Positions 12,544 to 15,243 of a stretch of 64,000 nt of DNA are shown one piece after another. The first letter of the stretch is position 1. Each line of letters starts with the position of its first letter. The notes beneath the pieces were generated by a model. It made no database searches and was not told where the DNA came from. It saw nothing but the letters and a program-made list of their open reading frames with translations. A program made the translations under genes and the position numbers. This DNA comes from Verrucomicrobiota bacterium JB022 (GTDB lineage: Bacteria; Verrucomicrobiota; Verrucomicrobiia; Opitutales; Oceanipulchritudinaceae): contig JAUTCQ010000001.1 of NCBI GenBank assembly GCA_030673845.1, positions 62,001 through 126,000 of the forward strand. Direction: 5' to 3'.

Positions 12544-13701
12544 ATGAAGCGCTCGATGATCTACCCCTTCGCCGTGCTGGCCGGCACGGCCATGCTCACG
12601 GCCCAGCAGCCCGTCTTTTCGTCCGACGATGAAGTCGAATCCGTCCTGACCGAAGCCGGCCCGGTCTCGGTCAAGGAAATTGCCAAAGGCCTGAATCACC
12701 CGTGGGGGCTCGCCTTTTTGCCCGATGGACGCCTGTTGGTGACGGAACGCGCCGGAGACCTGCGCGTGCTGGAAGGCAACGGCAAGCTCTCCCGCCCGGT
12801 GCGCGGCGTGCCCAAAGTCTTTGCCGACGGGCAGGGGGGCTTGCTCGACGTGGCGCTCGACCCGGATTTTGAGCAAAATGGCTGGGTCTACCTGTCCTAC
12901 GCCGAATCCGGGCAGGGTGGGGCGTCGACCGCTCTCGGGCGAGGCAAGTGGCAGGACGGCCGCATTCAGGACTTTGAGGTGCTCTTCCGTCAGGAGCCGC
13001 GCATCGACGGTAACAAGCACTTCGGTGGGCGGATCGTCTTCGACGAGGAAGGCCACCTCTTCCTCACCCTGGGCGAGCGGTTCCAGTTCGACCCGGCGCA
13101 AGACCTCTCCAACCACCTGGGCACGGTGGTGCGCCTCAACGCCGATGGCTCGGTGCCAGATGACAACCCCTTTGTCGGCGAAGCAGGCAAGCGCGAAGAA
13201 ATCTGGTCTTACGGGCACCGCAACGTGCAAGCTGCGGCCGTGCATCCCGACACGGGCGACTTGTGGATTGTCGAAATGGGGCCCTTGGGCGGGGACGAGC
13301 TCAACCAGCCCCAAAAAGGCCATAACTACGGCTGGCCGGTCGTCAGCGCGGGTTATCACTACAACGGCTCGGAGATCGCCAAGCCTGAAACGCATCCAGA
13401 GTTCACCGGCGCGGTCAAATACTACTCGCCCGTTATATCCCCCTCCGGCATGGCCTATTATACGGGCGAGAGCTTCCCGGAGTGGCAAGACAGCTTCTTT
13501 GTCGGCGGCCTTTCCAGCCGCCAGCTCGTGCGCATCGAGATCGACGGGCAGGAAGTCGCCCACGAGGAGCGGATCCCGCTGCCGGAGCGGATTCGCGATG
13601 TCGAACAAGGCCCCGACGGGATGCTCTACGTCATTACGGATACCAAAGACGGGGCGATCTGGCGGCTGGAGCCTCTGCGCCCCAGCGGTCAGGACAGTTA
13701 A
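12544..13701 (+). CDS. Soluble PQQ-dependent sugar dehydrogenase (aldose dehydrogenase family)
   Basis: This 385-residue periplasmic protein has a signal peptide (residues about 1-21). It carries the six-bladed propeller signatures of the soluble glucose/aldose dehydrogenases: LNHPWGLAFLPDGRLLVTER, GGLLDVALDPDF, YGHRNVQAAAVHP, EMGPLGGDELN and YGWPVVSAG. His and Arg residues in these motifs form the PQQ site in relatives. It oxidises sugars to lactones, with electrons passing to an acceptor. No PQQ synthesis genes are seen here. It starts 45 bases after the channel gene and ends in a strong terminator. Confidence 0.9.
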   Translation: MKRSMIYPFAVLAGTAMLTAQQPVFSSDDEVESVLTEAGPVSVKEIAKGLNHPWGLAFLPDGRLLVTERAGDLRVLEGNGKLSRPVRGVPKVFADGQGGLLDVALDPDFEQNGWVYLSYAESGQGGASTALGRGKWQDGRIQDFEVLFRQEPRIDGNKHFGGRIVFDEEGHLFLTLGERFQFDPAQDLSNHLGTVVRLNADGSVPDDNPFVGEAGKREEIWSYGHRNVQAAAVHPDTGDLWIVEMGPLGGDELNQPQKGHNYGWPVVSAGYHYNGSEIAKPETHPEFTGAVKYYSPVISPSGMAYYTGESFPEWQDSFFVGGLSSRQLVRIEIDGQEVAHEERIPLPERIRDVEQGPDGMLYVITDTKDGAIWRLEPLRPSGQDS

Positions 13702-13729
13702 CGCCGCCTTTTAGTTCCGCAACCTGCCC

Positions 13730-13755
13730 AGCCTTCCGCCACGGAAGGCTTTTTT
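13730..13755 (+). terminator. Terminator after the PQQ sugar dehydrogenase
   Basis: The stem is AGCCTTCCG (13730-13738) with CGGAAGGCT (13742-13750), followed by a T run. It is a strong plus-strand terminator. Confidence 0.9.
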
Positions 13756-13859
13756 GTGCGATAAAACTCGGCTAAGGCGGCTCTCCTTGCTCACAGCCAT
13801 CAGGTAATCTCGTTTGAGAATAAGCGCTAGTGATGACCGCGGAATCCCGAAGTATTCCC

Positions 13860-13890
13860 TTGTCCTCAAGTTAACTTGAGGTCGTATAAA
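13860..13890 (+). promoter_or_regulatory. Canonical sox box in a SoxR-type promoter, reading towards the 3' end of soxR
   Basis: The 18-bp palindrome CCTCAAGTTAACTTGAGG (13864-13881) equals the classic SoxR operator. It sits in the spacer between TTGTCC (13860-13865) and TATAAA (13885-13890), exactly 19 bases apart. That overlong spacing is the hallmark of MerR/SoxR-activated promoters. The orientation is rightward. The only thing downstream before the convergent soxR gene is an ATG at 13899, opening a 74-codon frame antisense to soxR. With this -10 the transcript would start at or next to that ATG. Confidence 0.85.
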
Positions 13891-13977
13891 CCTCGGCCAT
13901 GACACCGGAAACACCTCCCACGGCCATGGCTGCACCTCGGGCCAAGCGACGCAAGACACGGGCGATCCGCGTGGCGG

Positions 13978-14415
13978 CTAGAGCAGCCGAGGCCCCGCGC
14001 CCTGCAGCCCCAGCTCGTCGTCGGGGTTGCGCAGCGGGCAGTCCTTCGTCGACAGGCAGCCACAGCCAATGCAACGGCCCAGTTGGTCCTTCATTCTGTT
14101 CGCTAATTCAATTTTTTCTGTGAGCGCCAGCTGCCAGTTGCGGCTGACTTTTTGCCAGTCTGCCTTCGTCGGCACGCGGCTGGGCGGCAGGTCGCGAAAG
14201 GCCTCCTTGATCTCTTCCAGCGTGAAGCCGAGCCGCTGCGCCACCTTGATGAAGGCGAGGATTCGCAGCTCGCGGCGGGAAAAGAGCCGCTGGTTCTGCC
14301 CATTGCGCACGCTCCGGACCAGCTGCTTCGACTCGTAAAAATGGATCGCCGACACCGCAATACCGCTACGGCGGGAGATCTCGCCCACGGTCAGCAACGA
14401 CTCTTTTTTGGACAT
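13978..14415 (-). CDS. soxR: Redox-sensing transcriptional activator SoxR
   Basis: This 145-residue MerR-family protein has an N-terminal winged helix (LTVGEISRRSGIAVSAIHFY), a coiled-coil dimerisation helix and the [2Fe-2S] signature CIGCGCLSTKDCPLRNPDDE (four Cys). This is characteristic of SoxR and distinguishes it from other MerR proteins. In relatives the cluster is oxidised by redox-cycling drugs or nitric oxide, and SoxR then activates promoters with 19-base spacers. ATG 14415 is chosen on the family N-terminus. One sox box lies in its own promoter and another faces its 3' end. No soxS is seen. Confidence 0.95.
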   Translation of the reverse strand: MSKKESLLTVGEISRRSGIAVSAIHFYESKQLVRSVRNGQNQRLFSRRELRILAFIKVAQRLGFTLEEIKEAFRDLPPSRVPTKADWQKVSRNWQLALTEKIELANRMKDQLGRCIGCGCLSTKDCPLRNPDDELGLQGAGPRLL

Positions 14416-14429
14416 GTCACGCAGCGTGG

Positions 14430-14447
14430 CCTCAAGCGAACTTGAGG
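14430..14447. promoter_or_regulatory. Sox box between soxR and the short-chain dehydrogenase gene
   Basis: The palindrome CCTCAAGCGAACTTGAGG differs from the canonical box only in its four central bases. It is 14 bases upstream of the soxR start. On the minus strand a TTGACC (14451-14446) fits a -35, with a poor -10 19 bases on. It probably serves soxR autoregulation and may also control the divergent gene at 14512. Confidence 0.8.
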
Positions 14448-14511
14448 TCAAGCGCAGGCCCGTCCTCTCTCCGAACCGACTTAACTCGAATCCCAGAAAG
14501 ATACACAGCTC

Positions 14512-15243
14512 ATGAACAAGGAAAACGAGCGTATCGCTCTCGTCACCGGCGCGACCGATGGCATTGGCAAGGAAGTGGCCCGGCAGCTCTGCCTGCAGGA
14601 CATCAAAGTCGTGATCGGCGCGCGTAACGTGGAAAAAGGGCGGGGCGTCGCCGCCGAATTCCGCCGCGACGGCCTTGAAATCGACATCGTCCAACTCGAT
14701 GTGACAGTGCAGGAAACCGTGCAACGTGCGGCGGAAGAGCTGGAAAGCCGCTACGGGCGCCTCGACATCCTCGTCAACAACGCGGGCATTGCGCTTGATC
14801 GCGGCCCCTGGAGCACGGCGCCCTTCGAAGACGTAATCGCCACCTACGAGACCAACCTTTTCGGTATGATCCGCGTCACCCAGGCCTTCCTGCCGCTCTT
14901 GCGCCGCTCCGCCCACGGGCGCATCGTCAACGTCTCCAGCAGCCTGGCCTCCTTCGCCGGCATGACGGACGAGAAGAGCCCCTACTACAACGTCCTGCTG
15001 CCCGTGTATGCCTCCAGCAAGGCTGCCATCAACGTGCTGACTGTGCACCTCGCGCGCGAGCTGGAAGGTACCGGCATCAAGGTCAATGCCGTCGAGCCGG
15101 GTCTGACGGCCACCCGCGCGGTCAAGATCCCCGGTGCGCAGCCGGTCGAAGTGGGCGCAGAAGCCCCCGTGCACTACGCGTTGATCGACGACGACGGCCC
15201 CACCGGCCAGTTCTTCGACCGCTTCGGCACCTACAAGTGGTAG
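14512..15243 (+). CDS. Short-chain dehydrogenase/reductase
   Basis: This 243-residue classical SDR has the Rossmann motif TGATDGIGKEVA (TGxxxGxG), NNAG at about residue 89, the catalytic Ser in NVSSSLASF and the YASSK catalytic Tyr-Lys pair. The R of IGARN suggests preference for NADP(H). Close in style to plant and bacterial carbonyl reductases, it likely reduces reactive carbonyls or quinones. It is divergent from soxR with a sox box between, which fits a role in redox-stress defence (inference). A terminator follows at 15300. Confidence 0.85.
   Translation: MNKENERIALVTGATDGIGKEVARQLCLQDIKVVIGARNVEKGRGVAAEFRRDGLEIDIVQLDVTVQETVQRAAEELESRYGRLDILVNNAGIALDRGPWSTAPFEDVIATYETNLFGMIRVTQAFLPLLRRSAHGRIVNVSSSLASFAGMTDEKSPYYNVLLPVYASSKAAINVLTVHLARELEGTGIKVNAVEPGLTATRAVKIPGAQPVEVGAEAPVHYALIDDDGPTGQFFDRFGTYKW

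Follow-up and report, generated by a model that had tools for sequence, protein, structure and literature searches.

In E. coli, the soxS promoter carries a sox box between its -35 and -10 elements, which are separated by an overlong spacer, and transcription from such promoters is activated when oxidised SoxR distorts this spacer. The same organization, a box between the two hexamers and an overlong spacer, characterizes the SoxR-activated promoter of mfsA in S. maltophilia, for which spacer distortion is outlined as the mechanism; SoxR of this species also binds next to the start of its own gene and thereby represses it (PMC4411124). In the loci of both species, a single box located between divergent genes serves both of them. 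Two further arrangements are relevant. In an excludon, a long transcript acts as the mRNA of one gene and as antisense RNA to its neighbour, and in a noncontiguous operon, such as menE-menC-MW1733-ytkD-MW1731 of S. aureus, a gene of opposite orientation is embedded within the transcription unit (PMC7154746).

The locus described here belongs to a 64,000-nucleotide stretch of DNA from Verrucomicrobiota bacterium JB022 (hereafter the window), and its features are listed in Table 1. Like soxS and mfsA, it has a sox box between promoter hexamers with an overlong spacer, as well as a box by the start of soxR. It differs from both in that a second box is found past the 3′ end of soxR, within a promoter (P2) that is antisense to the gene, and in that the intergenic box (P1) is reversed. 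The original prediction of a canonical sox box within TTGTCC-N19-TATAAA was borne out: the palindrome is perfect, lies between recognisable -35 and -10 hexamers and occupies a 19-nt overlong spacer. A SoxR protein scoring above the family cut-off is encoded in the same genome, and the cysteine motif of this product presumably holds the iron-sulphur cluster. The gene upstream of P2, which is codirectional with it, resembles by eye a PQQ-dependent aldose sugar dehydrogenase and ends in a strong terminator.

Table 1. Features of the soxR locus in the window (positions are those of the window)
Feature	Position	Strand	Details
Intrinsic terminator of the upstream gene (12544-13701, +)	13730..13750	+	9-pair hairpin followed by a T run; insulates P2
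P2, SoxR-type promoter	13860..13890	+	-35 TTGTCC 13860-13865, N19, -10 TATAAA 13885-13890; antisense to soxR, codirectional with the SDR gene
P2 sox box	13864..13881	.	CCTCAAGTTAACTTGAGG, 18 nt, perfect palindrome; from sequence and pattern search
ATG at the predicted transcription start, with 74-codon ORF	13899..14123	+	start position conserved, product not
soxR	13978..14415	-	145 aa, cysteine motif CIGCGCLSTKDC; TIGR01950 (NCBIfam SoxR), 186 bits (cut-off 116.9)
Terminator-like hairpin in the antisense RNA	14128..14146	+	-9.6 kcal/mol, 4 nt after the ORF stop, then ACTTTTTG
P1, soxR-directed	14430..14451	-	second sox box 14430-14447, 14 nt before the soxR ATG; -35 TTGACC 14451-14446; weak -10
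SDR gene (short-chain dehydrogenase/reductase)	14512..15243	+	PF00106, E = 4e-49; divergent from soxR; nearest gene ahead of P2 on its strand

We compared 31 SoxR loci, namely the window, four relatives that form one clade with it (L009, L023, L024 and L106) and 26 comparators. The comparators include 12 plasmid loci chosen for diversity from 60 among 130 records, and L025-L029, which were the next five of 80 loci after L023 and L024 and were taken without a check against the SoxR cut-off; L008 and L023 are the same locus and were counted once. The SoxR clade with P2 has a support of 100/98, and a single gain of P2 suffices to explain its distribution. Its five members, two of which are congeners, span three families of the window's order as well as NAT23 (L024). 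The P2 box lies 96 nt past the soxR stop in the window, 85 in L023, 93 in L024, 90 in L009 and 139 in L106, and is perfect in four loci and carries one mismatch in L023. A box past soxR, searched for with up to three mismatches within 600 nt, is absent from all 25 comparators with 3′ sequence (L134, with 38 bases 3′ of soxR only, was omitted from this count); 21 of these 25 have a recognisable box 5′ of soxR, and the others (L157, L027, L028 and L029) are less informative since they lack a recognisable 5′ box as well. The claim of a SoxR-type promoter antisense to soxR thus gains sequence support, with five of five sampled clade members against none of the 25 other loci, and a search for loss of the box in close relatives found it kept in all five.

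Within the 4.35-Mb genome of the window, the only places that match the box pattern with zero or one mismatch are those of P2 and P1, both flanking soxR. When up to three mismatches were allowed, the pattern gave 24 + 20 matches and its backward control 19 + 23, so that these looser matches are at chance level. The perfect boxes in the genomes of L106 and L024 are likewise only the two that flank soxR, with one additional single-mismatch place in the latter (G872). Each of the flanking boxes has one mismatch in the genome of L023 (G001), and in that of L009 (G036) the P2 box is perfect and the P1 box has two mismatches. Among the 73 more distant matches (L030-L102), a scan allowing two mismatches returned one box, in L031, 5′ of its match. 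In a genome of the same family (G002:C98, L010), a SoxR-like protein is represented by its C-terminal part only (48% identity over query residues 82-145, in a 95-aa open frame), the fetched stretch of this locus holds no sox box with up to four mismatches, and L010 is possibly a decayed soxR.

The orientation of the boxes was assessed with a matrix built from the box-aligned hexamers that face away from soxR at the intergenic boxes of 20 of the 26 comparators (all except L025-L029 and L157), a construction that assumes away-facing boxes. Like the clade of five, these 20 loci of Opitutales and proteobacteria (L103-L105, L110, L133-L137, L148-L156, L158 and L159) have a box 5′ of soxR and, among those whose neighbours were inspected, mostly a divergent gene beyond it. 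Unlike it, they have a single box, with no 3′ box in the 19 that have 3′ sequence, and TTGACC is directed away from soxR in all of them but L151 (19 of 20) and toward it in none. The clade is reversed in this respect: the TTGACC of P1 faces soxR in all five loci, with weak -10 elements, and the TTGT outside the P2 box faces the SDR gene in all five. Toward the SDR gene, P2 scores 6.0 in the window, 7.1 in L009, 2.2 in L023, 2.7 in L024 and 3.6 in L106 (random-sequence P of 0.0004-0.007); scores in the opposite direction range from -12.1 in the window to -20.9, and the idea that P2 fires away from soxR was rejected on these scores. Among the other promoters, scored by leave-one-out, 18 of 20 reach 8.7-15.7, above all five P2 scores, and L105 and L151 reach 2.6 and -5.4. 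P2 thus has the look of a genuine promoter that is not strong. Three loci have a good -10; that of L024 (TAGCGG) and that of L106 (GAGGAT) are poor.

According to the original prediction, antisense soxR was the only thing that P2 could transcribe. This proved wrong, as the SDR gene is next in the direction of P2, with its start 613 nt past ATG 13899. It is divergent from soxR in all five loci, directly so in the window, L009, L023 and L106; in L024, soxR lies at the end of one contig and a related SDR gene (68% identity) at the end of another, the two contigs being identical over 99 overlapping bases, and the adjacency of the genes is taken from this overlap. Relatives of the window SDR thus adjoin soxR throughout the clade, at 62-75% identity. 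No SDR match was present in the fetched stretches of nine further soxR regions from the order (L103-L105, L110 and L133-L137), and searches of the complete G149 and G188 genomes gave none at E <= 1e-30; by eye, the divergent gene beside soxR is FMN reductase-like in L103, L104 and L110 and of HlyD type in L105. Because the same five loci that carry P2 have the divergent SDR gene, P2 points at it. A scan of the five loci between soxR and the SDR gene found no ordinary sigma-70-like site directed at the latter; in L106, a promoter-like site occurs on the SDR strand just upstream of P2. The intergenic box was considered as a direct activator of the SDR gene and rejected, as P1 scores toward this gene are negative in four of five loci (-7.4 in the window, -7.3 in L023, -5.5 in L024 and -16.0 in L106); at 0.1, direct activation is possible in L009. 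The soxR-SDR pair has a counterpart on a Methylosinus plasmid (L154), where an SDR gene (40% identity) divergent from soxR is faced by TTGACC-N19-TATACA. Judged from its layout, this locus is the plain version of the pair, and as such a natural control for the displaced arrangement.

The reading that we consider modestly probable is that P2 is a SoxR-activated promoter of the SDR gene that has been displaced beyond soxR, and that a single RNA serves as the SDR message and as an antisense RNA that damps soxR. On this reading, which is the simplest, the SDR promoter has come to stand behind soxR, and SDR transcription would have to cross soxR in antisense. Redox-active compounds would oxidise SoxR, the overlong 19-bp spacer would be distorted and P2 would fire; RNA polymerase would then traverse the whole of soxR in antisense before reaching the SDR gene, such that induction of the enzyme would damp the synthesis of new SoxR. 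Activation of P2, read-through into the SDR gene, the effect on soxR and the role of leader translation are what we infer from this layout, and antisense feedback on soxR from P2 appears plausible.

P1, aimed at soxR, would serve autoregulation. Its scores toward soxR are -2.3 in the window, -0.3 in L009, -1.2 in L023, 5.5 in L024 and 3.3 in L106, so that P1 too may be an activated promoter, the value in L024 exceeding that of P2 in the same locus (2.7). In L009, P1 also fits an ordinary soxR promoter with a 17-nt spacer. In its position next to the soxR start, P1 resembles the S. maltophilia site, and an activating or a repressing role would both be compatible with it.

This arrangement corresponds to a promoter and a codirectional gene that flank a gene of opposite orientation, P2-soxR(-)-SDR(+), in all five loci (in L024 through the contig overlap). 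As predicted from the sequence, the layout matches an excludon or a noncontiguous operon, except that the antisense RNA would here cover the gene of its presumed activator. Its likeness to the excludon (PMC7154746) lies in the predicted double function of the P2 RNA, mRNA for the SDR gene and antisense to soxR; the difference is that the covered gene here encodes the protein presumed to activate the transcript, so that a feedback loop would be closed, and that the overlap is itself a prediction. As in the S. aureus noncontiguous operon outlined there, soxR lies in opposite orientation inside the predicted transcription unit, but no conserved coding gene precedes it, only an unconserved leaderless ORF. 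Among the titles and abstract beginnings listed by searches of open-licence papers, a corpus that leaves subscription journals mostly outside, there was no SoxR promoter antisense to soxR.

In the first of the alternatives, P2 makes only a short antisense RNA for negative feedback on soxR, which in the window would stop at the hairpin 14128-14154 after about 250 nt, and the SDR gene has its own promoter. This alternative is unlikely, if by no means negligible. It draws on the hairpin and the run of five T right after the stop of the window ORF, and on the fact that P2 is aimed at the soxR complement in all five loci; together with a second, weaker terminator candidate (-8.4), this hairpin could end the P2 RNA of the window before the SDR gene. 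However, the T run at this position is interrupted in L009, L023 and L024, and L106 has five T there with no preceding hairpin in either of two scans. On the SDR strand, our own scan gave two candidates in L106 (-7.5 and -6.5), one in L024 (-9.2) and no terminator-like site in either L009 or L023, and the tool scan found one each in L009 and L106 and none in L023, L024 or the SDR contig of L024; L023 is therefore free of such a site by either scan, and the candidate in L024 is seen by one of the two. A short RNA would also leave unexplained why P2 co-occurs with the SDR neighbour, an association that could, given that the five loci form one clade, stem from descent rather than function. A search of 13650-14600 against Rfam at gathering scores found no known structured RNA, and 13899-14155 folds no better than its shuffles (z of -0.17).

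Alternatively, P2 could be a high-affinity SoxR site that acts as a roadblock, as a loop partner of P1 or as a titration site, and not as a promoter. The perfect palindrome in four of five loci, the two poor -10 hexamers and the presence, in all five, of two sites 553-617 bp apart that flank soxR are in keeping with this idea. Mere binding would, however, need neither the conserved four bases outside the box on the SDR-directed side, which are TTGT in five of five loci, against four bases on the other side that agree in only three of five, nor the conserved ATG 15-17 nt beyond the box, and we regard it as distinctly improbable that P2 is a binding site only.

This ATG had been taken in the original prediction for the start of a leaderless message, and a start at or near it finds support in the relatives: an ATG stands 6-8 nt after the P2 -10 in all five loci, followed by a frame that is open to the soxR stop (in L106, the second of two in-frame ATGs was used, the first overlapping the -10). 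In the 14 nt after the -10 of the 20 other promoters, no ATG was found. In dinucleotide shuffles, the probability of the ATG is 0.019-0.14 per locus, with a product of 1.2e-7, or 7e-9 for the ATG and the open frame together; these figures are a guide, as the test was post hoc and made on related loci, two of which, the window and L023, have bases in common near the ATG. The conserved start and open frame are what speaks for a leaderless mRNA encoding a small SoxR-induced protein, as does the rarity of Shine-Dalgarno-like motifs before the ORFs of the window: such 4-mers precede 4 of 36 long ORFs and occur in 5 of 36 cases when a control stretch is taken instead, with crude gene calls, and initiation without a Shine-Dalgarno sequence may be usual in this organism. 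Against it stand the reading frames. Relative to soxR (gap length minus ATG offset, modulo 3), these are 1 in the window, 2 in L009, 1 in L023, 0 in L024 and 0 in L106, and the parts that overlap soxR are accordingly not all homologous; the ORFs read its complement in three frames and hence cannot be one protein. Their lengths are 74, 144, 71, 262 and 229 codons in the same order, their N-termini have little in common beyond MT in three, and the window ORF, the one searched, has no match in Pfam or NCBIfam. Of the two conservations compared among relatives, that of the promoter held in all five loci and that of the 13899-14123 frame did not. A conserved small protein gene is thus rejected on the comparison of frames and sequences, the predicted SoxR-induced small protein is left without support, and that P2 drives such a message is very doubtful.

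If P2 is the displaced promoter of the SDR gene, the AUG at the 5′ end of its RNA would load ribosomes on the antisense leader without any need for a conserved product. That the start codon is conserved and the product is not fits, as we infer, a role of translation itself, perhaps in shielding the long RNA from Rho. The ORF of L024, with its contigs joined over the 99-base overlap, stops 23 nt short of the SDR start, and that of L106 extends 31 nt into the SDR gene, so that translation of the leader and of the SDR gene may be coupled there. GC-rich genes often have open in-phase frames on their antisense strand, for which reason these two long ORFs are just suggestive. A more specific version of the preferred reading, in which soxR is embedded in the 5′ leader of its own target, the SDR message is a full-length soxR antisense RNA and ribosomes from the leaderless AUG carry it across, is a candidate that stops somewhat short of being probable.

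The soxR-SDR intergenic region of the NAT23 MAG measures 287 nt after contig joining (L024 1-180, L144 2230-2397). It seems to hold an inserted, perhaps mobile element with similar ends, recognized by eye (TAGGGAGTGTTCGAAAATCAGG and CCTGATTTTCTAACACACCCTA); a repeat search covered one of these two ends. The insertion may have broken the assembly at this place, and the P2 frame remains open through it.

The boxes, their orientation, the conserved ATG and the conservation of the unit can be read directly from the compared loci, and P2-soxR-P1-SDR appears to be kept as a unit in several Verrucomicrobiota lineages. That P2 is a relic retained by common descent without present function is the least probable of the alternatives: its limitation to one clade agrees with this view, but P2 is nearly invariant (five loci) while its flanks are largely unalignable (four loci), across three families of the window's order plus NAT23. 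Within overlapping draws of genomes, SoxR was found in 7 of 387 for the phylum, 7 of 384 for the class, 9 of 372 for the order (8 above the cut-off) and 10 of 252 for the family of G141; NAT23 is the only carrier in the draw of its order (1/288), and G036 the only one in its family (1/10). A layout that is conserved and yet so patchily distributed hints that the unit moves as a unit. A scan of viral contigs for relatives of the window SoxR found none.

In the examples of excludons and noncontiguous operons described in PMC7154746, antisense covers a gene other than the one that activates the transcript. If the preferred reading is true, in which P2 is the promoter of the SDR gene displaced beyond soxR, the transcript of the activator's target would be antisense to the activator gene itself, a compact loop in which response and damping would be hard-wired in one RNA. 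It would also be an example on which to test why a leaderless start persists on an antisense RNA whose peptide does not.
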